A stretch of 44,276 bases of DNA from a virus. Made by a program: the position numbers and the translations under genes. Of the stretch, positions 289 to 27,075 are shown piece by piece (position 1 is the first letter of the stretch; every line of letters starts with the position of its first letter). The stretch covers positions 1 to 44,276 of the IMG/VR virus record IMGVR_UViG_3300021057_000172; one strand, given 5' to 3'. The notes below the pieces were generated by a model, which had not been told where the DNA came from, did no database searches, and was given only the letters and a program-made list of their open reading frames with translations.

Positions 289-672
289 TTAGGTTAATCG
301 TCTTATTTGAACGTGAAAGTGATCCCCGTGACCACTGTTATGAAATACGACAAGAAGCGGTTCCCCTGCCGTTGTTACCGCCGCTACGTCCTTGTACTTA
401 TTATTAAAATGAAGTTGAAACTCACCAATGATTTCAGCAGGCCAAGCCCTAGATGACAAATCAACCGCCCGCCCTTCTCTGTGTGTAGCAGATACACGAC
501 CAAGCTTTTGATCCTCTTCTATAGTGGTCACCGCTTCAGTTATAAAGAGGGGCACCTTTTTATCAACCGTCCAGCGCCACATTTCAACCAAGATTTCTTT
601 TAGCTTTTGGTGTAGTCCTTCTGAGCGTTGATAAACTAAATCAGTCTTAAAGCAGACCTCTGGTATTTTCAA
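289..672 (-). CDS. Endolysin, M15 (VanY-like) D-Ala/L-Ala peptidase
   Basis: This protein of 127 residues carries the zinc-peptidase signature of family M15: S61-x-x-H64-x-x-G67-x-A69-x-D71 and the second motif H118-F-H120, preceded by G116-D117. H64, D71 and H120 would bind the zinc. Such enzymes cut peptide crosslinks in peptidoglycan and serve as phage endolysins (A500/T5-like peptidases are family relatives). There is no signal peptide, so export would need a holin or membrane damage. The start is TTG at 672, in a TTGA overlap with the stop of the upstream methyltransferase, with AAGGCGG just before it. It lies at the distal end of the late operon, separated from the other lysis candidates at 6.8-8.2 kb by the sugar cassette. 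Confidence 0.9.
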   Translation of the reverse strand: MKIPEVCFKTDLVYQRSEGLHQKLKEILVEMWRWTVDKKVPLFITEAVTTIEEDQKLGRVSATHREGRAVDLSSRAWPAEIIGEFQLHFNNKYKDVAAVTTAGEPLLVVFHNSGHGDHFHVQIRRLT

Positions 673-1988
673 GATGCCGCCTTAACCTGAGCTTGCAATT
701 CAGACTCGGTAGGAATGCACGCAGCATATTCAAAAATTCTGTCTGTCGCTTCTGACTGAGACTGAAGAGAAACATTTCGCAAATGCTTTGCCACGCTAAT
801 GGCTTGTGCAAAATAGTGTGACTCCTCTTCAAAGCTTCTCATGCGACCGGCTTGAATTGCCATCTCGCGATAAATATAAATTAACTGTGATAAAGACGTT
901 GGGGTTTCAGGCTTTTGCTGTAGAGCTATCTCGCAATACTTAAGAGCTTCTTCCCATTTGTTTGCCCGCATAGCCAGGTCAGTAGCCATCACAGAAATAT
1001 CATAACAGCCAGGACATGCCCTTTGAGCCGGTTCAATCACATGCTCTTTAATGTATTCCCAGCCTTTTTCAAAAACCTGCTTTCTTGTCATCTCAAGTTT
1101 ATTCACATGAGCAACTGGGAAATCGGGAAAGGCCGCGATTGCCTCTTCATATTTGCCAGCATCGTAAAGTGTCTTGGCGTTTTTAATTGCCATCATCTTA
1201 GCTTTGATTTCTTCAGGATTTTCAAACTCTACAGCCTCATTCATTAGAGCGTCGTTGCGCTTGCAAAGATAAGTTGAATCATAGAGCACATGGTCTTGCT
1301 TAACGATTTCAAGCCCTGCCTTCTTTAATAGCCCTTCAAAGTGTTTTCGAGTCCACACGTTAATGTGGTTAGGGTCATAGTAATAATCCATGCTAAATCC
1401 GGTCGCGCCAAAGTTGTGCATACGGGTAAACCAAATAGGCACGCTGATATATAAATAGCCAGTCTCTTTTAGGCAAAGAGCATACCGTCTAAGCTCTTTA
1501 TCAGCATCAAGCTGATGTTCGGCGACCTTATAGCTCATGATCAGGTCATAGGTTTTTGTGTCGTCAAAGTCTTCAGTTAGCTTGATGTTGTATTCATGCT
1601 GAGCAACTCGGCGAAAAGAGGTTGTTAACTCTGTGCCTTCTACTTGCGCGCCAGGCACGCGCGCGCGAAGCCATGCTAGCGCCATACCAAAAGCTGCTCC
1701 GATTTCTGTGATCTGAGGTTTTAGTCCTTTCGTTTTCCACTCCTCAAACACACTTCCTAAAAAAGCCTCATGAAAATGAAGCTTGCGCTGACCTGTGAAT
1801 ACATTAGCATGTGTTGGGGGCTGTCTATAGTTCTTGCGGTAGTGCTCTAAGATTGCTTCTTTAGATTGCCATTTTGAAGGGTAGCTCGTGAACCCGCAAT
1901 TGGTGCATATGTGCATCCCCGCTGGCTTGTTTCTTACGTGATCGACATTTTCCCATTTGTCAGTACTGTTACAGACGATACATCTCAA
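669..1988 (-). CDS. SAM-dependent methyltransferase with N-terminal Cys4 zinc site and C-terminal TPR-like helices
   Basis: The 439-residue protein has three parts. Residues 1-35 hold C3-x2-C6 and C28-x2-C31, a rubredoxin-like zinc site. Residues of about 90-245 form a class I methyltransferase of the Methyltransf_23 type (EIGAAFG glycine motif near 96-102, then a YKVAEHQLD post-motif and an LKETGYLYISVP segment). The last 150 residues look like TPR helices (EEALKYCEIALQQKP). A zinc-binding head on a Methyltransf_23 core is typical of sugar C- or O-methyltransferases of deoxysugar and surface-polysaccharide loci. The start is TTG with GAGGAG six bases upstream, four bases after the DAHP-synthase-like gene. 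Inference: it methylates the product of the neighbouring sugar cassette. The acceptor could also be a protein or lipid carrier. Confidence 0.85.
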   Translation of the reverse strand: MRCIVCNSTDKWENVDHVRNKPAGMHICTNCGFTSYPSKWQSKEAILEHYRKNYRQPPTHANVFTGQRKLHFHEAFLGSVFEEWKTKGLKPQITEIGAAFGMALAWLRARVPGAQVEGTELTTSFRRVAQHEYNIKLTEDFDDTKTYDLIMSYKVAEHQLDADKELRRYALCLKETGYLYISVPIWFTRMHNFGATGFSMDYYYDPNHINVWTRKHFEGLLKKAGLEIVKQDHVLYDSTYLCKRNDALMNEAVEFENPEEIKAKMMAIKNAKTLYDAGKYEEAIAAFPDFPVAHVNKLEMTRKQVFEKGWEYIKEHVIEPAQRACPGCYDISVMATDLAMRANKWEEALKYCEIALQQKPETPTSLSQLIYIYREMAIQAGRMRSFEEESHYFAQAISVAKHLRNVSLQSQSEATDRIFEYAACIPTESELQAQVKAAS

Positions 1989-1991
1989 GGG

Positions 1992-2813
1992 TTACTCCTC
2001 TGATAAAACATTTTTAACTTGGAAAACTTTTTTCATTAGATTCTTATAGTCAACGTAACCAATTGCCTGGTCGCTATCAGACCAACTTTGTGTTGGATCT
2101 GGATGCGTCTCAACCAAGATGCCATCAGCACCAGCGGCTATACCAGCTAGAGTCATTGGAGCAACAAGGTCACGCCTACCTGTCCCGTGTGAGCCATCAA
2201 CAATAACAGGGATATTAGTAATTTTTTGAACTGCCGGGATCATGCTAATAGATAGATCCCAGCGCACATGATTCAAATGAGTTGATGACCCACGCTCAAT
2301 TAAATAAAGCTCTTTTACACCGCCGGTTAGCACGTGCTCGGCAGCTCCAAGCCACTCATCAATCGTTGAGCCTGGATGGCGCTTTAGAAAGACTGGCTTT
2401 CCATACTTTCCAAGTTTTCGCAAAAGAGTATAGTTTTGCATTTGCCGACAGCCGACTTGGAAACAGTCTGCATATTTATTGCATAAATCTAGCGCCTCAT
2501 CGGTGTAATCTAGAATTTCAATGATGTTAGAAAGCCTGTTTGCTTTAGCCGCTTGGTAGTAAGCCTCTAACAACTTCTCATCGACCAATCCGAAAACATG
2601 TCCTGGATAAGTGCCAGCTCGAAACACTCCCCCGCGCAGGTGAGTAGCACCATGAATTTTAACAAAGCTTGCAACATCCTTGATCTGACTTTCTGATTCT
2701 ACGGAGCAGGGACCCGAGATAACCACAAAATCATTCTTAGGTGGAATGTAAGCTACAACCTTCGGATAGTTGGGCTTAGGCCCCCATTGTCTTCGAAGAG
2801 CAAACTCATTCAT
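1992..2813 (-). CDS. DAHP synthase-family aldolase (class I beta / KDO8P-synthase-like)
   Basis: This 273-residue protein belongs to the class I PEP-condensing aldolases: GPCSVES at 34-40, QVGCRQMQN at 119-127, KPVFLKR at 139-145, [13 protein letters not shown] at 205-217 and VETHPDP at 234-240. The expected metal ligands are present: C36, H209, E235 and an Asp at 246 or 248. In canonical DAHP synthases the RGG segment is followed by KPRTS, which grips erythrose-4-phosphate; here it is FRAGTYPG (64-71). The catalytic core is therefore kept but the aldose pocket differs. It lacks any regulatory ACT or chorismate-mutase domain. TAATG coupling joins it to the gene upstream. Either it makes DAHP to feed aromatic synthesis, or (my preference, given a cytidylyltransferase neighbour) it makes another 2-keto-3-deoxy sugar acid. 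Confidence 0.9.
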
Positions 2814-3178
2814 TAAAAACTGCTGTTTTTTAAAAAGTCTTGTAATTCTTGATCTCGCTTTCTTTTCACACTCAACCAGTCCGGGTGTTCTTTTGCCCTC
2901 AATGGGTCATCACCAGGAAGCGGGTGTTTAAGTCTAATAATAGCTTTGGCTGTTTTTTCTAAAGAGCGGGTCAGCCTACAAAACCAAATGACCATGTTTT
3001 CGTCAGACAATTTTTTGGCGGTCGCCTGAGTCATGCCAACTTGAATCTGATACTTAACCCTAGCTAGGCCGTTGATATCTTTCCTGGCCAAATGATCATT
3101 GAGCATTTTGTTCCACGCCTTTGAGTTTCCAGTGGCGTAGAGCTTTACTAGGTCAATACCCTCTTCTTTTCTTTTCAC
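2813..3178 (-). CDS. Hypothetical basic helical protein (121 aa)
   Basis: I do not recognise this family. It is rich in Lys/Arg and predicted helical, with no export signal. The GTG at 3178 is preferred because it makes a GTGA overlap with the upstream stop and has AGAGG at proper spacing; an in-frame GTG at 3184 overlaps the Shine-Dalgarno itself. It is translationally coupled on both sides, between the cytidylyltransferase/glycosyltransferase and the DAHP-synthase-like gene, so it probably belongs to the same cassette. No function can be assigned. Confidence 0.75.
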
Positions 3179-4479
3179 GCGCACCTCTTCTCAATTTCCG
3201 ATTTGATCTTGGCGCGGCGTTTTTTATTTGTTTTAGACATTGAGTCCGGGCGTTGCGTATAAAAGAAAATGGGCTTATTTAAGTAACCAATTTCAAGTTG
3301 TTCCTTAGCCCTTAAGAAGAAATCAAGGCCCTCATAGCCCCTTAGTCCATCCGTGAATTTTATGTGATTAATTGCAGCTTTGTTAAATATTGCTCCGCCA
3401 ACATGGTGCTTTTCTGATCCATCTTGAATCTTATTAAAATTTCCAAAGTAGTTATCTGGATAAATAACATCATGGCGAGACTGTTCAATTTTCTGAAGCA
3501 TCTCATGCATGGCCGTGATCGATACTAAGAAGTCATCAGCATCAAGGCGCATGATATAGCTACCCTTGGCCTCTTTAAGTGCTATGTTTGAAGAGCTGGC
3601 TAGGCCAAGATTTTTCTGATTCTTAATCCAACGAGTGTTTGGATATTTTGTGCAAAACTTAGCTATCTTTTCAAGAGTGGTATCAGTAGAGCAATCATCG
3701 ATGATAATATATTCGATGTCTTTAAATTTGTACTGTTTAGCCACACTCTCCATACAGCGTTCAATAAATTGTTCGGCGTTGTAAGCGCATGTGTACATGG
3801 TGAGCTTTGGAAGGTTGTTAACGGCCTTTAGCTCTGGATTGGTGTTGAGATATTTGACCACGTCTTCTAATTGGCAGTCAGGTCCCAGCGTGCTCATTAA
3901 AACATCCATCATTTGAACGTCTTGAGGGTAGTCAATTAAGAGCCTGTGTGTGACATTAGGGTGACGTGGATTGAATTCTGAAATGTTGCTAGTGACAGAT
4001 TTAATAGCATAGCCAATGAATTCAACATTGGAATATTTTTCAGCAGCGGTTTTAAGTGCGTCGATTGAGATAACTTCAAACCCGCTTCCAGCTACAAACT
4101 TTGATGAGTAGACATAGTCAAAGCCGCCCTTAATCATGTGATCGACTGCAGGTCTTAGGTCACCGTAGTTTACAAAGATTTTGTCATGGCTGATTCTAAT
4201 AATTTGCTTGAGGTTAAAATGATCAGCTACTTTAAACATTCTTTTTAAAGGGTCATTCCACTCTGGCGAACCTACAATTTTTACATTCTTATATTTTGTT
4301 AAAAAGTAATATCTGTCCTCAAATTGGTCATCCGGTACAGCGATATAAATTGGCAAATTAGAAGGCACCAACCGCTTTATTAAATGCTCAATGATTGGCG
4401 CGCCACAGATTGGAATCATGCACTTGCCTGGAAGGCGACTAGAGTCTAAGCGTGAACAAATGACGATGCCTGCGCTCAC
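3175..4479 (-). CDS. Fusion: SpsF-like CMP-sugar cytidylyltransferase + GT2 glycosyltransferase
   Basis: Two domains are visible in 434 residues. Residues 1-220 resemble acylneuraminate/KDO cytidylyltransferases of the SpsF type: the nucleotide-binding signature R10-LDSSRLPGK at 11-19 and the GAPIIEHLIKRL helix. Residues 224-434 are a GT-A family 2 glycosyltransferase: TMYTCAYNAEQFIERCMESV at the start, IIIDDCSTD near 258-266, and the DxD-type metal motif RLDADD at 311-316. This suggests one polypeptide that activates a sugar (CMP-linked if SpsF-like) and another activity that transfers a sugar. The GTG start overlaps the upstream stop (GTGA) and has GAGG upstream. It is followed directly by the DAHP-synthase-family aldolase. 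The true nucleotide could be other than CMP; the cytidylyltransferase half is divergent (RISHDK where RITADC is usual). Confidence 0.9.
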   Translation of the reverse strand: MSAGIVICSRLDSSRLPGKCMIPICGAPIIEHLIKRLVPSNLPIYIAVPDDQFEDRYYFLTKYKNVKIVGSPEWNDPLKRMFKVADHFNLKQIIRISHDKIFVNYGDLRPAVDHMIKGGFDYVYSSKFVAGSGFEVISIDALKTAAEKYSNVEFIGYAIKSVTSNISEFNPRHPNVTHRLLIDYPQDVQMMDVLMSTLGPDCQLEDVVKYLNTNPELKAVNNLPKLTMYTCAYNAEQFIERCMESVAKQYKFKDIEYIIIDDCSTDTTLEKIAKFCTKYPNTRWIKNQKNLGLASSSNIALKEAKGSYIMRLDADDFLVSITAMHEMLQKIEQSRHDVIYPDNYFGNFNKIQDGSEKHHVGGAIFNKAAINHIKFTDGLRGYEGLDFFLRAKEQLEIGYLNKPIFFYTQRPDSMSKTNKKRRAKIKSEIEKRCA

Positions 4480-4664: not shown

Positions 4665-4890
4665 CTACACACTCTCTTTTAAAAGTCTGAAATGCTTCAG
4701 GAGGATTGGACTTATTTCCACTTACAAAATAATCAAAAACCACATGGCATTGATTGCACGTTTTGGCTAAGTGATAGTTTTTCCAGACATCATACTCGGC
4801 GTCTGGATCAAAATAATGTGGAGAGGGTTCTTTCGATAAAGCCACTAGAGTCCCACATTTACATGCTATCAAAGTTTTTATGATCCCCAT
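4654..4890 (-). CDS. Small Cys-motif (zinc-ribbon-like) protein (78 aa)
   Basis: The protein has C10-x-C12 and C44-x2-C47 separated by about 30 residues, a spacing compatible with a zinc ribbon, plus one unpaired Cys near the C-terminus. It overlaps the radical SAM gene by 13 bases and the next gene by 11, so all three are probably translated together. The function is unknown; a role as partner or metal-site protein for the radical SAM enzyme is only a guess from position. Confidence 0.65.
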   Translation of the reverse strand: MGIIKTLIACKCGTLVALSKEPSPHYFDPDAEYDVWKNYHLAKTCNQCHVVFDYFVSGNKSNPPEAFQTFKRECVDGN

Positions 4891-5831
4891 GGATGCTTAT
4901 ATCCCTTGTAAGATTCAAAGCTTGAGCATGTTTTGCATGGATCAAGCTCAAAAGCCTTGCCGTCCTTTAAATCTTTGCGAAGAGTTTTTGCGTTCACAGA
5001 ATTAAAAATCTGTTTAACTGTTTGATGATTAATGTCGCCAATGGCTAGCTTCTCGCCGATGTCTACACAGCAAGGGAAAGCCTTGCCGGTCCAGTTAAAT
5101 ATGATTCTTGCGTGCGCTTGAATGCACGATTGCCTTTGGGATGAATCACGTTTACGATTTTCTAAGGCCTGAAGGTCTGCGTTTACCCTTCCCCCGACCA
5201 TGTCACGGATAGAAACTTCCGCTTCAGGCCAACGCTTTTTTGCCTGGCCATAGATGTCCTCATCCTTATTTAGCTTTGTTCTTACCGCTTGAATAACTAT
5301 CTCGGTATTTTTTCTCTTTGGGTGATTATAGAAAATGTCTATGTTTTTCATGGCTAGGGCGTGAATGCTGCCAGCACGTTGCTTTTCCATTACCTCAGGA
5401 ATGAAAGAATCAAAGCTAACTTTAACCTTAGTTTGATTGCAGAGCCCTAAGAAAATATCGTCTCTATGAGAATCGAATTTGAAGTTTGAATTTGTAAGCC
5501 TATCAATGAATGTTGAGCCGTATGCCATGCCCTTGGCGTACTTAGTTATGTTATAAAAGTTTGGATTAAGTGTGCTTTCACCCTTCCAATTAAACTTTAG
5601 TGAATTAACGCCAAGGTGCGCGCACTGATGAATAATGTTAAGTGCCGTCGGATATGTCATCACGCCCATTTTAAATGGCAGATGCTTTTTATCGGCGTGA
5701 TAGCAATAGCCACAAGCCTGGTTACAAGCCGACGCTAGTTCTAAAGAGACATCGACAGGGACTTCTAATGGTAGGTGTTTTGCGAATCTATATTTAAGAC
5801 GATATAAGAAATATTTTAAGTCAGTGTTCAC
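4878..5831 (-). CDS. Radical SAM enzyme with SPASM-like C-terminal Cys motifs
   Basis: The 317-residue protein has the radical SAM cluster signature C36-x3-C40-x2-C43 (SACNQACGYCYHAD), followed by a GESTLNPN segment that fits the glycine-rich SAM site. Near residues 235-260 and 297-305 are further cysteines (FPCCVD, DPCKTCSS), as in SPASM/twitch domains that hold an auxiliary Fe-S cluster. Such enzymes modify peptides or small molecules, including sugars (epimerisation, dehydrogenation). The start is GTG; AAGG lies too close (one base) to be an ideal ribosome site, so the start is less sure. It is the first gene after an 84-base gap that holds a possible promoter, and heads the sugar cassette. 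Confidence 0.88.
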   Translation of the reverse strand: MNTDLKYFLYRLKYRFAKHLPLEVPVDVSLELASACNQACGYCYHADKKHLPFKMGVMTYPTALNIIHQCAHLGVNSLKFNWKGESTLNPNFYNITKYAKGMAYGSTFIDRLTNSNFKFDSHRDDIFLGLCNQTKVKVSFDSFIPEVMEKQRAGSIHALAMKNIDIFYNHPKRKNTEIVIQAVRTKLNKDEDIYGQAKKRWPEAEVSIRDMVGGRVNADLQALENRKRDSSQRQSCIQAHARIIFNWTGKAFPCCVDIGEKLAIGDINHQTVKQIFNSVNAKTLRKDLKDGKAFELDPCKTCSSFESYKGYKHPWGS

Positions 5832-5907
5832 GCCTTAAGCTTTTGATAGACAAGTCTACCTAGTCAAAAACATTGAACAAGTATCCAAAAAGTATATTTT
5901 TCTGGCA

Positions 5908-5935
5908 ATTATAGTTTATAGCTCATAAGCATAAA
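5908..5935 (-). promoter_or_regulatory. Possible internal promoter ahead of the radical SAM/sugar cassette
   Basis: On the minus strand a perfect TATAAT (5913-5908) lies just after the fibre stop codon, with a weak -35 TTTATG (5935-5930) at 16 bases. The leader downstream (5901-5832) carries a short dyad TAGAC-AA-GTCTA at 5847-5858. This is the only intergenic gap of note in the late operon between the tail genes and the cassette, so separate control of the cassette is plausible. The -35 matches consensus at only three positions. Confidence 0.35.
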
Positions 5936-6824
5936 TGCGCCCAACAAAGTTAGCCGTAACTGTTCCAGCTGTGGAAGTACTTGTTATAACTGATGATGCA
6001 AAGAAATTGTGCGTCCCAGCCGTCAGTGCAACGATTGTGAAAGCAGAGATATTTGCCCGCATCTTTGTGTCAAGGGCAGTAGCGTTTATCACACCAGCTG
6101 TGAACCCATACATTTCATAAGCAACTGGAATTTGTATAGCCCTCGAGGTTGTAGTGTGTTGATCATAAAAAACGTTAATTGAGGCTTGTATTTCAATTGA
6201 GGTAGACGTGCTACCAGTTACCTGTCCGTAGCATTGTCCGTTTGCACCTGGTCCTATGCCTATAAAAATTGGGCGTCCACTTGACACGATTGTGCATGTG
6301 GACCCAGATATAAGTGTGTCACTTGATCCAATTGTAAAATGAGACGTAGAAAATGCAGCGCCCTGAGCTACATATCCCTCTGCCGCAGAAGTCGTTAGCC
6401 CCGTTGCCTGTCTCTTGCCTAACGAAACTGAATTGGCCTTAAGGTAAGCACCGTTAAATCCATTCTCATCAATCTGAGCTGTCAATGTTCCAGCGACATA
6501 GAAAGAATGTTTTCCATATGCTGTGCTAGTTCCAGCGACGCTGTAAAAAAGCTCTGGGTTACTTCCAGCAGTTCCACCATAGATTCTTAGCTCGTTTCCT
6601 GTGGAGGTGTTTGACAGGATATCTAAGCGCCTTGTGTACAGTGTAGACCAGTAATATTCAGTTGAGCCAAGATCATACGTATTGTGAGCAGAGGTCGCAG
6701 TGTTCGGATGAATAGGAATAATGTGGCCGCGCAAGACATCAAAGTTATTGTTTACTTGAGCCGCGCGCGCCTTGGTGTTTGCAGTAAAATTAAAGAACGA
6801 GGTTATTGTTGCACTACTAGGCAT
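5916..6824 (-). CDS. Tail fibre / receptor-binding protein, paralogue B
   Basis: The 302-residue protein shares its first about 60 residues with the protein encoded at 8233-9327 (MPSSATIT..F.FTA, AEVNNNF.V.RGHIIP, TYDLG). This region should be the virion anchor. The rest diverges completely and ends in a beta-rich domain of about 140 residues (from about 165) with repeated Ser/Thr strands and GTHNFFAS, TAGTVTANFVG motifs like a C1q/TNF-type trimeric head. It therefore probably binds host receptors. The ATG overlaps the preceding gene by 8 bases. It could be an alternative tip used with, or instead of, the paralogue. Confidence 0.8.
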   Translation of the reverse strand: MPSSATITSFFNFTANTKARAAQVNNNFDVLRGHIIPIHPNTATSAHNTYDLGSTEYYWSTLYTRRLDILSNTSTGNELRIYGGTAGSNPELFYSVAGTSTAYGKHSFYVAGTLTAQIDENGFNGAYLKANSVSLGKRQATGLTTSAAEGYVAQGAAFSTSHFTIGSSDTLISGSTCTIVSSGRPIFIGIGPGANGQCYGQVTGSTSTSIEIQASINVFYDQHTTTSRAIQIPVAYEMYGFTAGVINATALDTKMRANISAFTIVALTAGTHNFFASSVITSTSTAGTVTANFVGRIYAYEL

Positions 6825-7344
6825 GGGTCACCTCTTTTTCCATAAGATTTTTAAGACCGTAGTCTAAAAGCTGGTCGATAAATTGCTTGGGGTTATTAAA
6901 ATCAGCATTGCCTGAAATCGGAAGCGACGTGTATTTGGTGCAAGATAGAGAGGTTATTTCAGAGCAAATTAATTCAGAGTCGTTATCATCAACGAACTTT
7001 TGTAGCCACTTTCCGATAACTGGGATGAAACCTACAAACTGACTCTCTGAGTAATCCTTGCCAAGATTGCCCTCTAAGAACCCTAGAAAGCGCTCAGGAT
7101 GTACGCGCAAAAACGGTGTGATATCAAATTTATGTCGATAGAAGTGCGTCTGTAAAAAGCTAAGTTCTAACTCCTCATGAAATCCCTTTTTGCCAGTGGC
7201 ATGGTAGATGAGATTTGGCTTAGAATCGTTTTCAAAATCAATTATATGACCAACGTGAGAATAGTTAGCGCCGATTCTATTCATTATGATTCTAGATTTT
7301 TTATCAACCACAAGTTCGCTTGAGGAAAAATAATATATTCTCAA
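6817..7344 (-). CDS. Permuted papain-like (YiiX/NlpC-P60-type) cysteine hydrolase
   Basis: With the TTG start at 7344 the protein has 175 residues. It contains the order typical of permuted NlpC/P60 folds: an early S29-H30-V31-G32-H33 motif, IYHATG at 46-51, and a late SELICSEI with C127. In this family Cys and His form the catalytic pair that cuts amide or thioester bonds in peptidoglycan or lipids. The TTG is preferred to an upstream GTG at 7359 because it forms a TTGA overlap with the lipoprotein stop and has GGGGG at proper spacing. It lies in the lysis group, so a wall- or envelope-degrading role is likely. Confidence 0.7.
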   Translation of the reverse strand: MRIYYFSSSELVVDKKSRIIMNRIGANYSHVGHIIDFENDSKPNLIYHATGKKGFHEELELSFLQTHFYRHKFDITPFLRVHPERFLGFLEGNLGKDYSESQFVGFIPVIGKWLQKFVDDNDSELICSEITSLSCTKYTSLPISGNADFNNPKQFIDQLLDYGLKNLMEKEVTHA

Positions 7345-7631
7345 TTTTCCCCCGTACACATTTTGGCTTGGTATTCTTTAAGAGCAGTTATGTCAGACGG
7401 CGGTAGAGCATAGAAGCCATTACACTTTTCAAAAGGTAGCCACTCCTCTGGCTCATCAGAAAACTGAATCTGACAGGCATTTTCTTGAGACACAACTTTA
7501 AAGCGCCCGCATTTCCACTTCTGCTCTTTCTTATCAAAGGCAATAATGTGAGGGCTTAGCTTGGGAAACTGAGCACAATTAATCAGGCCTATTGCCATTA
7601 AGATGGTTGCCAGCGGCTTTGCCAATTTCAT
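7341..7631 (-). CDS. Small lipoprotein, possible outer-membrane spanin (Rz1-like)
   Basis: Starting at ATG 7631 (GGGGG about 6 bases upstream) the 96-residue product begins MKLAKPLATILMAIGLINCA, a lipoprotein signal with lipobox LINC and lipidated C19. The mature part has four more cysteines, which could form disulfides in the periplasm. The gene starts inside the preceding small gene (7579-7782) in another frame, the nested arrangement common for Rz/Rz1 spanin pairs. It is longer and less proline-rich than typical Rz1, so spanin identity is inferred from topology and position. Confidence 0.7.
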   Translation of the reverse strand: MKLAKPLATILMAIGLINCAQFPKLSPHIIAFDKKEQKWKCGRFKVVSQENACQIQFSDEPEEWLPFEKCNGFYALPPSDITALKEYQAKMCTGEN

Positions 7632-7782
7632 CCAAGTCCCCCGATTGTATTGCATCTTGCAATTTTTCTTCATTCTCTTTGCCGATATTCTCGGCCTTCT
7701 CTCCGGCGACTTCTCGCTGAATCAACCACGCAAGCTTGCCAGCTAACCATTCAAGAAGCCACGCGAAGAGTTTTTTGCCCAT
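7579..7782 (-). CDS. Small protein with N-terminal amphipathic/hydrophobic helix, lysis group
   Basis: The 67-residue protein starts with a Trp/Leu-rich segment of about 20 residues (LFAWLLEWLAGKLAWLI) followed by a charged helical tail. The hydrophobic part is short and interrupted by Glu and Lys, so it is more likely amphipathic and membrane-associated than a full transmembrane span. It could be a pinholin-like or lysis-regulating protein. It overlaps the lipoprotein gene by 53 bases. The ribosome site is weak (AGG about 9 bases away). Confidence 0.6.
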   Translation of the reverse strand: MGKKLFAWLLEWLAGKLAWLIQREVAGEKAENIGKENEEKLQDAIQSGDLDEIGKAAGNHLNGNRPD

Positions 7783-7783
7783 G

Positions 7784-7999
7784 TTACTTACCTAATGCTT
7801 TTTCAAGAATTGGCTTAACCCAGCCTGGCAGGTCCGATTTTTCTAAAAGCTTTCCAGCTAGTTCTTGAATCAACTCACCCTTGTCAGCCTCAAGAACAAG
7901 CTTGAGCGATAGGGATTGCTTTTGGTCTTTGTCTAGGTCTAAACCAACTGGCAATTCTACTTTGACGATTTCGCCGTCTACTTTGATATCTGGTTTCAT
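7784..7999 (-). CDS. Hypothetical acidic protein (71 aa)
   Basis: I do not recognise it. It has a short beta start (DGEIVKVELPVGLDL) and a helical remainder. The ATG is well supported by AAAGGAG seven bases upstream. It is flanked by the TM-coiled-coil gene and the amphipathic small gene, one base apart from each neighbour, so it belongs to the lysis group by position only. Confidence 0.7.
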   Translation of the reverse strand: MKPDIKVDGEIVKVELPVGLDLDKDQKQSLSLKLVLEADKGELIQELAGKLLEKSDLPGWVKPILEKALGK

Positions 8000-13278: not shown

Positions 13279-13862
13279 CTAGCGCCCTCCGTGGCGTTTT
13301 GTCTTTGCTTCTCTAATGGCCTTTTCGTTGGCCTTTATCTCAGCTTCAAGTCCTACATTTGAACTCAACAAATCAAACTGAAATGCGTCCAAATCAGATT
13401 TCAAAAATTCACTCGGTCTTACACCATAACGTCTTGCCAAAAAGTCTATTTGGGCAAGCCTTTCGCGAGAGACGTAATTTGTTGATACTTTTTTTTTCCA
13501 TAGGTGAAAGACATTATCTCTTCATGTAACTTTTCTACTGTCGTCCAAATGGCGAAGAGATCTTCGACGAAAATTCCTTCGCCTTCTTTTTTGAACGTCA
13601 ATCTGGGGGAAACGACGCCAGCTACCAACACTTGAGAAAAGTATTCCTTTAATTTTTTTTCCGACGCCTTTCTTTCACTTGCATCGTTCTGCGTCTTATA
13701 TACTGCGTAATTCTGATCTAAAATGTTCGAGCCATCGACAAAGTTAAGAGGGCTTATTTTGCGAATGACAAACCGAACCCCCTCAATGCGGACAGTTTTT
13801 GTTTCATTAAGGGCATCTTTTATAGAGCGCCCAATTAACATCCACTTAATCCACTTAAGCAT
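13279..13862 (-). CDS. Tail assembly chaperone GT, made by -1 frameshift
   Basis: A run of nine A residues on the coding strand (13497-13489) lets ribosomes slip from the G frame into a second open frame that continues for 69 codons from GTA at 13488 to TAG at 13279, directly before the tape-measure start. The product would have 125 G residues plus 69, total 194. The extension (for example DFLARRYGVRPSEF, then LEAEIKANEKAIREAK) is the acidic/basic helical tail typical of T domains that bind the tape measure. The frame has no start of its own and is otherwise unexplained. The layout matches the lambda G/GT system. Confidence 0.85.
13446..13862 (-). CDS. Tail assembly chaperone G
   Basis: This is the unshifted product of 138 residues, placed between the tail tube and tape-measure genes as in lambda gpG. 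It contains a FVIRKISPLNFVDGSNIL segment and a long helical middle. It ends GKKKYQQITSLAKGLPK just after the slippery A tract. The ATG overlaps the tail-tube gene by 8 bases. Chaperones of this type are needed to build the tail tube round the tape measure and are absent from virions. Confidence 0.82.
   Translation of the reverse strand: MLKWIKWMLIGRSIKDALNETKTVRIEGVRFVIRKISPLNFVDGSNILDQNYAVYKTQNDASERKASEKKLKEYFSQVLVAGVVSPRLTFKKEGEGIFVEDLFAIWTTVEKLHEEIMSFTYGKKKYQQITSLAKGLPK
13488..13494 (-). promoter_or_regulatory. Slippery heptamer for -1 ribosomal frameshift (A AAA AAG)
   Basis: In the G reading frame the codons are GGA AAA AAA AAG TAT, so A-AAA-AAG is correctly phased for -1 slippage. About 29 bases downstream is an inverted repeat CTTGCC...GGCAAG with a 14-base loop; this is farther than usual for a stimulator, so the long A tract itself may be the main driver. 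Confidence 0.82.
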
Positions 13863-14904
13863 ATGAACTCGTTAAGTTGTTCACGAGCGCGCGTAGTGCG
13901 TACCCGCTAGAAGTAGGATCTCTAAGAACCAAGAATGAAACTTCAGAAGTTAGAAACTCATTAGGTCCGCCAATCTCTGGGTCTCCTGCGTCTGATACCT
14001 CAACCCATGGCATAGTAAGTTTGATGCCCTCTTTAACTGCAGAGCCCGTCAAAGTGTCGCCTTGAAATTCTAGCTCTGCTACTAAGCGAGTTCCGTTTTT
14101 CATAGCGTCGATTGCAGTTGTGGTATCAAAGCGAATTGTTGCCTTCAGCTCAATCTGAGCAAGTCCTGGGGGTAATACCGCCAGAGTGTCAGAGCCGATT
14201 CTGCGAGAACTTGCGTCAGCTTTAAGATTATTCTTAAGAACCAACTCAACACTTTGAACATGCCAAAATGAAGTTGTGGTCAATGCCCCTGTGGAAGTTT
14301 CCACACTAAAGCGACCATTTACAAAGCTTAAAGGAATCTGTGTTGAGGTAGACAGTGAGCTTGAAACGTCGTTAGTAGAGTTTGACCAATCCTTACCGAT
14401 CAAACCAAAGTTCATAACTAGCGGCTCATCAATCTCTGCTGTGATTGCTAACTCATTAACCCGAAGACCTGAGTATTCAACAATCTTTGCACTTGCTGAG
14501 TCACCTTTTCGCATGTTGATCGAAAGGCTTGAGTAGGTCTGATCAAAGTTAGCAATGTTAATTGTGTGAGAAAAAGCTCCACCACCAGCAGTCTCGCCCG
14601 TGGCCGTTGCGGAAGTTACTGGACCTCCACCAAAGGCGTTAATGAGAAGGTAGTTTGCAGCTAGGCTTCGCGGAGAGTAGTAGCACTCAATCTCACCTTC
14701 CACAGTCCGACCAAGACCCAGAGAATTAGAATTGGTCCTGCTTGTTTGAATCTCTTCAAGAATCTTTCTTTCTTTCATTCCCTTTAAAGAGGCAGATAGA
14801 AAGTTAAGTCCTGCGGTGCCGGTTACATAGGTGCCGTATGTTGTCTCTCTTCCAATGGCTAAGTAACTTAAACCATTGATAAGTGCGCCTTGTCCTACAG
14901 CCAT
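13855..14904 (-). CDS. Major tail tube protein (349 aa)
   Basis: The N-terminal pattern GLSYLAIGRETTYGTYVTGTAGLNFLSASLK is that of siphovirus major tail proteins (tail tube, beta-sandwich). It lies directly before the G/GT chaperone, the expected order. The ATG has AAGGAG upstream. At about 350 residues it is larger than a minimal tube protein (about 150-250), so it may carry an extra surface domain, which could be the target of the DUF115 glycosyltransferase encoded just upstream; that last point is inference. Confidence 0.82.
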   Translation of the reverse strand: MAVGQGALINGLSYLAIGRETTYGTYVTGTAGLNFLSASLKGMKERKILEEIQTSRTNSNSLGLGRTVEGEIECYYSPRSLAANYLLINAFGGGPVTSATATGETAGGGAFSHTINIANFDQTYSSLSINMRKGDSASAKIVEYSGLRVNELAITAEIDEPLVMNFGLIGKDWSNSTNDVSSSLSTSTQIPLSFVNGRFSVETSTGALTTTSFWHVQSVELVLKNNLKADASSRRIGSDTLAVLPPGLAQIELKATIRFDTTTAIDAMKNGTRLVAELEFQGDTLTGSAVKEGIKLTMPWVEVSDAGDPEIGGPNEFLTSEVSFLVLRDPTSSGYALRALVNNLTSSYA

Positions 14905-14917
14905 TGTTTATTACTCC

Positions 14918-15904
14918 TTATACTGATTGAGCAAATGCATGGGTGTGATCCACGTAAATGCCCTTTAATAATTTTTCGATTTGTGCTTTTTTATTTAAAA
15001 TTTCTTTAAGTTGAGCGACCTGTTTTCGCACTGTCACTGCGTCCTCAGGCTTATGCTTGTACTGAATTTGCTCGGCTAAATTTCCAAAATACTTAGACCT
15101 TAAAATAGTCTTTTTGGTGCAATTAACCACAGGCAAATCAAATGTGGTTATGTATGTGGTTAGCCACTGCGCTGAAAATGCCAGATTGCCAGAGGTATAA
15201 GCCCAATCACCGTCGAGTGTTGTGATATAGGCATGGCGCATGTAGTTTGATTTTAGACCGCCGTCTGAATCAAAGGCGTAGTACTTACCATTGGCGCGCC
15301 AAGAATAATCGTAACCAATGAGTAAGATTTTGTCATAGCCAAAGAAGTTTCTTTTACCATCGTTATCACTTTGAGTAAGCAGAATGACCATGGCGTTAGA
15401 AACATTGGTACCGGCTGGGATAAAATTCTTACAGCCAGATATTTTCGAGAATTCTAGGTGAGAATTAATAATGTCTTTATTGATAAAGAAATAGATGTCT
15501 TTCCAGTTGCCGTTTTTAGTCCACTTAGGGTTTGCACAGACATTAACAAAGGCAATCGTGTCTTTTAGTTGATCCTTGTACTTTTCCATGTACTTTTCAT
15601 AGTCCACATTAGCGTCGCAAACCACGCAGTAAGTAGGCGTGATGCCGTTTTCAAGCAAGTGTCCTAGAGTCTTATCACAGCAAAGAATGTCAACATTGTG
15701 CTGATAGAGCTTAATAGTCTCGATATGTTCTTCAAACGAAAAGCCATTTGCTACACAAAGAACGGCCCGCCCAATGCCTTTATTCTCAAAATCAGAGAAT
15801 GGCTTCATTGGGAATTTCGAATGCTCAGCCGCTTGCGCGCGCCACTGCTCAGCCCATTGCCCGTAGGCCGCCTCACTCTGCATTCTAATTTGTTCTGCCT
15901 TCAT
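14918..15904 (-). CDS. DUF115 / Maf-type (motility accessory factor) glycosyltransferase
   Basis: The 328-residue protein has the DUF115 core: GRAVLCVANGFSFEEHIETIK near 45-65, a DILCCDKTLGHLLENGITPTYCV segment at about 72-95 where the family has the ALNRALKHGIKPDYVV signature, and IPAGTNVSNAMVILL followed by KILLIGYDYSW. Family members (Maf) transfer CMP-activated nonulosonic acids to flagellin; others are 6-hydroxymethylpterin diphosphokinases (MptE). In a phage, with a cytidylyltransferase and a sugar-acid aldolase elsewhere in the genome, the glycosyltransferase role is favoured. It is set inside the tail operon between the tail terminator fusion and the tail tube gene, with GGGGAG at its ATG. 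Confidence 0.82.
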   Translation of the reverse strand: MKAEQIRMQSEAAYGQWAEQWRAQAAEHSKFPMKPFSDFENKGIGRAVLCVANGFSFEEHIETIKLYQHNVDILCCDKTLGHLLENGITPTYCVVCDANVDYEKYMEKYKDQLKDTIAFVNVCANPKWTKNGNWKDIYFFINKDIINSHLEFSKISGCKNFIPAGTNVSNAMVILLTQSDNDGKRNFFGYDKILLIGYDYSWRANGKYYAFDSDGGLKSNYMRHAYITTLDGDWAYTSGNLAFSAQWLTTYITTFDLPVVNCTKKTILRSKYFGNLAEQIQYKHKPEDAVTVRKQVAQLKEILNKKAQIEKLLKGIYVDHTHAFAQSV

Positions 15905-25578: not shown

Positions 25579-26071
25579 TTGAAATTCCCTGCATTCTAAC
25601 TAGTGATGCGCTTATGATTTGGCTGACTCGGCTTTCATCAATATCAAAAATCTCTGCAAGCTCACGGTTTGTAAAACCCCATATCATTGAAAGTTTGACG
25701 ATGGCTTTTTCACGTTGGCCATCAAGCTTTGACATGAGCTTAGTAGTGTCGATTCTTGCGTCTAGGCTTTTCCTTGGGTCATAGGAAGCGGCCTTGATAA
25801 GCTTATCTTGTTGTTTCCATCCAAGAACACTCTGATCATAAACCCTAGTTTCAGAGGACTTGTTGCGCTTATCTCCAAATCTCTCTCTCAAGTAGTCACA
25901 CACATGCCAAAATAGATGCAGTATGTTTCCACGCTCTAAGGCTTTTTGAAACGTACCGTTGACCATATCGTCTAACTCCGCAGATGAAATGCCAATGCTT
26001 GCGCCATAACGCTTAATCGTTCTTTGAAGGACTTTGATTTCATCGTCTGAGAGTGAGGAGATGGGTTTCAA
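25562..26071 (-). CDS. Sigma factor-like protein (region 4 helix-turn-helix)
   Basis: The 169-residue protein is a small sigma-70-like factor. The last about 55 residues (LDGQREKAIVKLSMIWGFTN, then RELAEIFDIDESRVSQII) are a region-4 helix-turn-helix that would read a -35 element. The N-terminal part (TIKRYGASIGISSAELDDMV, KALERGNILHLFWHVCDYLR) could be region 2. It is placed directly before the terminase genes, so it probably directs host RNA polymerase to late promoters. The TTG start overlaps the methyltransferase stop as TTGA. It could also be a Ogr-like or anti-termination regulator that borrows a sigma HTH. Confidence 0.75.
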   Translation of the reverse strand: MKPISSLSDDEIKVLQRTIKRYGASIGISSAELDDMVNGTFQKALERGNILHLFWHVCDYLRERFGDKRNKSSETRVYDQSVLGWKQQDKLIKAASYDPRKSLDARIDTTKLMSKLDGQREKAIVKLSMIWGFTNRELAEIFDIDESRVSQIISASLVRMQGISNAKAS

Positions 26072-27075
26072 GCCGCAATTCTCCTCTCAGCGATTTTGAC
26101 ATATTCTTCATTCATTTCGATGCCGATGAATTTAAAGCCAAGGTTTTTACAGGCCACACCTGTACTGCCTGAGCCCATGAAGGGATCAAGGACGGTGCCG
26201 TTTGGTGGAGTGACTAGCTTGATGAGGTATTCCATGAGCTTCACGGGTTTGACGGTGGGATGGACATTACCTTCGCCACGCTCGCGCTTTGAAGCCTTGG
26301 CGACATAGAAGAAACGGGAGGCTCCTATCTTATCGTCGCCATACCTATGATCGGCCATGCGTTCTCTGCTTCCATGTTCGGCTATACCAAAGTCACCAAT
26401 ATGCTTTTGCCTTGGCCTGGCTTTTCCAGCAGAGTGAATTCCACCAGCAATACTCTGCTCGTCCAGCAATTTTGCGGCTTCTTCATCAAAGAGCACGTTC
26501 GCTGGCCAGCGGCCTAGAGCAGGCGTGACTGAGCCTTTACCGCCGTTGCCCCAACCAGCAACTGCGCCTTGCGATGAGTTGCCCGATCCGCTCGGCGTGC
26601 GCTCGCCATCGGCGAGTCCAATCCTGCTCACATCAATATTCAGCCCGCCAACTCCCCACTTCAGCACATTCTCAGCAACAGTGAGACCTTTCTCCAGAGG
26701 CTTGCGAGCTAAACATATCGGCTCGTTAGCTGGCTTTAGAGCTGTACCCCAGCCCTTGAAATCGCCCTCTTTGATGTTGTGAGATTTTGGGAATCCTTGC
26801 CCGTACAGCCAAGCAAGTTGGTCTCTAATCTCAAATCCAGCATCTTCAATTCTAACAACACCTCTGTGATAAGTGCGCGTGCCAAAGAAAGCGAGCAGGT
26901 GTCCACCTGGCTTCAATACTCGTAAAGCCTCACGCCAAATTTCAGTTGATGGGACGTCATAGTCCCATTTCTTACCCATAAAGCTAAGGCCATACGGCGG
27001 ATCTGTCACAATCGCATCCACGCTATTGTCCGCAAGCTCTTTCATTCTGATTAGGCAGTCGCCGTGGAGGATCAT
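26068..27075 (-). CDS. DNA (adenine-N6 or cytosine-N4) methyltransferase, beta class
   Basis: The DPPYGLSF motif IV at residues 25-32 lies near the N-terminus and the SAM-binding FMGSGST motif I at 299-305 lies near the C-terminus, which is the beta order. The C-terminal VLDPFMGSGSTGVA and GIEMNEEYVKIAERR are typical. The target domain (about 130-230) is long. No restriction partner is adjacent, so it is an orphan methylase, probably for protection from host restriction or regulation. ATGA overlap with the upstream gene. Confidence 0.92.
   Translation of the reverse strand: MILHGDCLIRMKELADNSVDAIVTDPPYGLSFMGKKWDYDVPSTEIWREALRVLKPGGHLLAFFGTRTYHRGVVRIEDAGFEIRDQLAWLYGQGFPKSHNIKEGDFKGWGTALKPANEPICLARKPLEKGLTVAENVLKWGVGGLNIDVSRIGLADGERTPSGSGNSSQGAVAGWGNGGKGSVTPALGRWPANVLFDEEAAKLLDEQSIAGGIHSAGKARPRQKHIGDFGIAEHGSRERMADHRYGDDKIGASRFFYVAKASKRERGEGNVHPTVKPVKLMEYLIKLVTPPNGTVLDPFMGSGSTGVACKNLGFKFIGIEMNEEYVKIAERRIAA

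Follow-up and report, generated by a model that had tools for sequence, protein, structure and literature searches.

A phage aldolase with the DAHP synthase fold and an altered acceptor motif exchanges with NeuB in one gene slot and is a probable ulosonate synthase

Analysis of a phage-derived stretch of DNA suggests that one of its genes probably encodes a 3-deoxy-2-ulosonic acid synthase with the fold of type Ibeta DAHP synthases (DAHPS), whose product would be CMP-activated and put on a phage protein. The stretch, hereafter the window, is a virus record from IMG/VR (44,276 bases) and encodes a terminase, a portal, a tail tube, fibre-like proteins and an integrase; no tRNA that could hint at the host was found in it. 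The gene (1992..2813, minus strand) is an intact open reading frame (ORF) with an ATG start, encodes a 273-aa aldolase and matches Pfam DAHP_synth_1 (E 2.4e-45). A preliminary description had reported a preserved metal site beside an altered motif for erythrose-4-phosphate (E4P), and both hold: GPCSVES (residues 34-40), H209, E235 and the terminal Asp, D246, are all there, and FRAGTYPG takes the place of KPRTS at residues 64-71 (codons at 2601..2624, minus strand; the earlier coordinates were right). It had also called the enzyme short and devoid of a feedback domain, which is true, yet ordinary: the P. furiosus chain has 262 aa and Aro1A 272 aa (PMC6362186), both with KPRT.

In Aro1A, a characterised type Ibeta DAHPS, the metal ligands are C36, H206, E232 and D243, PEP is contacted by R60, K65, Q116, R120, K141 and R171, and E4P by R67, T68 and D243 (PMC6362186). 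Alignment of the phage aldolase to P. furiosus DAHPS showed that it retains C36, R60, T68, Q119, R123, K144, R174, H209, E235 and D246, and that motif positions K60, P61, R62, T63 and S64 of the archaeal enzyme correspond to R65, A66, G67, T68 and Y69. As the metal residues and most PEP residues are kept while R65 stands for the Lys and G67 for the Arg, the PEP and metal chemistry looks intact and the grip on the sugar phosphate looks lost. In principle, R65 could take the role of the Lys, with E4P bound in another way.

RAGT(Y/F)P was present, and KPRT(S), the motif for E4P and PEP, absent, in all 24 phage sequences that cover the site, from the window and 23 other contigs (20 aligned homologues, three more, and L019); the 23 other contigs rule out that RAGTYP is an oddity of a single sequence. 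Across the 20 aligned homologues, which are 45-70% identical to the window protein, R65, A66, G67, T68 and P70 are invariant. The Lys of KPRTS contacts PEP in characterised enzymes (PMC6362186), and its replacement might point to a catalytically dead or regulatory relative. We regard this as highly improbable, given 40 invariant columns over the same 20 sequences, with C36, H209 and E235 invariant and D246 present wherever that residue is covered. Among cellular relatives, 32 of 33 have K-x-R-T; the remaining row is very divergent. In the tree, the phage sequences form one clade on a long stem (support 100/100) with every cellular row outside. Two peptide patterns run against 84,980 species genomes, an approach that would miss distant members, yielded 31 relatives, none with RAGT. 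Two cellular DAHPS relatives from Bacteriovoracaceae (L050 and L057) are of the short form, have KMRT for KPRT and sit on a long branch of their own; the exact motif pattern was found in none of 369 genomes of Bdellovibrionota, the phylum of L050. Plasmid matches beginning at residue 8, from Fusobacterium and Subdoligranulum, proved to be KPRTS enzymes of the ordinary kind. Twelve GenBank phage records contain homologues, all below 45% identity, and a search of the open-access literature found no phage DAHPS, no phage NeuB/Maf module and nothing like the phage aldolase.

We compared the aldolase with the models of the established families. It scored 245.5 bits against the DAHPS equivalog (NCBIfam TIGR01361), below the cut-off of 267.75; 57.8 bits against the KDO8P synthase (KDO8PS) equivalog (TIGR01362), far below the cut-off of 314; and 12.4 bits against NeuB (Pfam PF03102), below the cut-off of 22.1. 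The comparison with DAHP and KDO8P synthase structures that the preliminary description proposed was run on a structure model (pLDDT 87.6), and type Ibeta DAHPS came out best (Z 32-36), followed by KDO8PS of the same superfamily (Z ~30). Loop 65-74, which carries the altered motif, is the sole stretch of the model with a pLDDT below 50, and we therefore make no claim about its shape. With type Ibeta DAHPS (P. furiosus 1zco, T. maritima 1rzm and Aro1A of PMC6362186) the phage enzyme shares the (beta/alpha)8 barrel with its Cys, His, Glu and Asp metal site, most PEP residues and the short form without a regulatory domain, but it differs from them by RAGTY(P) for KPRTS, a score below the cut-off, membership of a phage clade and a place in a glycan cassette. 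Since it lacks the DAHPS motif and scores below the cut-offs of all three families (DAHPS, KDO8PS and NeuB), it is best named a DAHPS-fold ulosonate synthase, a name that leaves the acceptor unspecified. KDO8P synthases also retain a Lys/Arg phosphate motif, which the phage enzyme lacks; for this reason, and because of its low KDO8PS equivalog score, arabinose-5-P seems a less favoured acceptor.

The closeness in sequence and fold to type Ibeta DAHPS, together with a PHROG match to the family phospho-2-dehydro-3-deoxyheptonate aldolase, could instead mean that the enzyme is a true DAHPS whose motif has drifted, and that its gene is an auxiliary metabolic gene boosting the aromatic pathway of the host. 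We consider this decidedly unlikely: the residues lost are those for E4P, the change is fixed across the phage clade, whose members are 45-70% identical to the window protein, the score misses the equivalog cut-off, NeuB takes the same slot in sister phages (see below), and no other aromatic-pathway genes were found in the window.

The aldolase is the fourth of five genes in a cassette on the minus strand. It is preceded by a radical SAM/SPASM protein (4878..5831), whose nearest solved structure is BtrN, a sugar-type dehydrogenase (C-terminal part only), by a CTP-transferase of the KdsB/NeuA/SpsF type fused to a GT2 glycosyltransferase (3175..4479), and by a small conserved protein of 123 aa and no known family (2813..3184), which overlaps the aldolase by one base. 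The fifth gene, a Methyltransf_23 domain with a C-terminal TPR-like part (669..1988), starts three bases past the aldolase end. This order is kept in nearly all sister contigs, and in most of them the cassette lies downstream of a fibre-like tail protein gene, fibreB in the window (5916..6824, minus strand). The CTP-transferase domain is closest to KdsB and cytidylyltransferases, and enzymes of the KdsB/NeuA kind convert 3-deoxy-2-ulosonic acids into CMP sugars. CMP sugars are not known as substrates of GT2 enzymes, so the fused GT2 domain may add another sugar. In L028, the fusion is split into two separate genes and the order is changed, inside a glycan gene island. This phage-like island around the split cassette, seen in L028, L090 and L091 (57 kb contig), contains PfkB kinases, a nucleotidyltransferase, GmhA-like and epimerase ORFs and many glycosyltransferases.

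Sister phages that have the cassette without the aldolase carry an ORF of 222-254 aa in its exact place. These ORFs are NeuB by Pfam PF03102 (E 2e-12 to 2e-21), and their relatives in the PDB are sialic and pseudaminic acid synthases. For a census of the slot, we used the CTP-transferase/GT2 fusion as the seed, which gave 44 loci in which the fusion is complete (L223-L266); five of them break off before the end of the slot. In the 39 intact loci, counted as contigs rather than independent events and including some near-duplicates, the slot held a DAHPS-fold enzyme in 22, NeuB in 15, both in one and neither in one. Fifteen of the 22 DAHPS-fold occupants are of the RAGTYP kind (one of these SAGTYP), and seven are more distant, with other motifs that mostly lack the Lys and Arg of KPRTS, L264/L265 (KYRS) being the exception. 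Five distant slot enzymes, L254:8347-9084, L255:5383-6147, L258:8502-9398, L261:8173-8916 and L266:9015-9821, among which the acceptor motifs MGGT, LGGT, GGGT, RMEGT and KPLT occur, are further candidate specificities.

The census locus with both genes is L017 (the same contig as L235), where a NeuB-like gene (5827-6510, plus strand) adjoins the aldolase. Two histidines of NeuB are metal ligands, and both are replaced in this copy (GYKDK/EKNI versus GYSDH/EKHF), an apparent case of decay after takeover by the aldolase. That NeuB lost its histidines here, with the aldolase beside it, also speaks against a dead or regulatory aldolase. Strict mutual exclusion of the two genes is ruled out by L013, a contig outside the census, in which an intact NeuB-like gene (6325-7005) and an intact RAGTYP aldolase gene (6995-7810) lie next to each other on the plus strand; the two therefore need not be simple equivalents. 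Among these related phages, shared ancestry explains part of the linkage, and the co-occurrences cannot be counted as independent; this objection applies least to the slot swap and the decayed NeuB. Like the synthases of sialic, legionaminic and pseudaminic acids, the aldolase fills this slot of the cassette, beside a CTP-transferase of the CMP-sugar type, and it presumably shares their PEP condensation chemistry, but its score against PF03102 places it on a different branch of the superfamily. The aldolase may thus work like NeuB, but it is not a NeuB.

A Maf-like protein is encoded elsewhere in the window (14918..15904, minus strand). It matches PF01973 with 62.1 bits (cut-off 34.6; E 7.3e-17), a family to which part of Maf also belongs; Maf puts nonulosonic acids on flagellin. 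Against the full-length Maf/PseD equivalog of NCBIfam, it gives a weak match of 24.9 bits, short of the cut-off of 670. Its structure model (pLDDT 93) superimposes on Maf 5mu5 with Z 21.8 and an rmsd of 2.9 over 238 residues; also close is the pterin kinase MptE (Z 16.2), followed by SteA (~11) and CMP-sialic-acid sialyltransferases (~10). The Maf-like protein is present in 21 of the 24 aldolase records; it is missing from L028 and from two records that are fragments. Its gene neighbours one of about 320-350 codons, in the window the adjoining tail tube gene (Phage_tube_2; 13855..14904, minus strand). Among Maf-bearing contigs longer than 33 kb without the aldolase, six of seven have the CTP-transferase and NeuB. 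In IMG/VR, 118 stretches encode relatives of the Maf-like gene of the window. The phage module has the logic of the Maf flagellin glycosyltransferase systems (NeuB/PseI, CMP-transferase and Maf), with an ulosonate synthase, a CTP-transferase and a Maf-fold protein, but it is phage-borne, lies beside tail genes, uses a DAHPS-fold synthase and adds the radical SAM protein, the GT2 fusion and the methyltransferase-TPR protein.

The preliminary description suggested that the acceptor substrate has changed. We regard this as the best explanation, backed independently by the motif change across the whole clade, the CTP-transferase encoded next door, the Maf-like protein and the finding that sister phages have a NeuB-type gene in this slot. 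We propose that the aldolase would do the job of NeuB and condense PEP with an aldose that is not E4P, giving a 3-deoxy-2-ulosonic acid. The acceptor would most likely be an unphosphorylated, hexosamine-type sugar, as for NeuB enzymes, because the phosphate-binding Arg is lost, NeuB is the substitute and the window has no recognisable phosphatase. The neighbouring CTP-transferase would activate the product to a CMP-ulosonate, the radical SAM enzyme and the methyltransferase would perhaps tailor the sugar, and the Maf-like protein would attach it to one of the phage's own proteins, probably a tail protein; by position, the tail tube or a fibre are the natural suspects. More tentatively, and with rather less than even confidence, we suggest the full version of this scheme, in which a DAHPS-derived enzyme independently became an ulosonate synthase for unphosphorylated acceptors and displaced NeuB, and the Maf-like transferase puts a new radical-SAM-modified, methylated ulosonate on the tail tube or fibre.

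A different sugar phosphate as the acceptor, such as a pentose- or heptose-phosphate, with a host phosphatase trimming the ulosonate before CMP activation, would fit KDO8PS as the nearest other family, the retained T68 and the kinases, nucleotidyltransferase and GmhA-like ORF of the L028 island. This seems unlikely, since all RAGTYP members have Gly for the Arg of the phosphate motif, the NeuB-type replacement suggests an unphosphorylated acceptor, and no phosphatase was found in the cassette or window. As no HAD-type phosphatase was found in the window, an unphosphorylated product offers the simpler route to CMP activation.

If the proposed synthase function is correct, evolution would have reached sialic-acid-like sugars a second time, starting from a fold of the aromatic pathway, and the newcomer would be caught here while exchanging with the classical enzyme within one gene slot; this phage group would then use a cytoplasmic, Maf-like pathway to coat one of its structural proteins with an acidic sugar. 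The swap of NeuB and aldolase renders the substrate question directly testable. Annotation by family name would label such genes as DAHP synthase auxiliary metabolic genes, which would be misleading. Two further genes were seen in passing: a DNA methylase of the N6_N4_Mtase family at 26068-27075 of the window (E 1.1e-39), and, in the region L010:9077-10858 (L001:8077-9858, minus strand), a 593-aa ORF that resembles a protein of the UDP-glucose dehydrogenase type with an intein-like stretch inserted in it.
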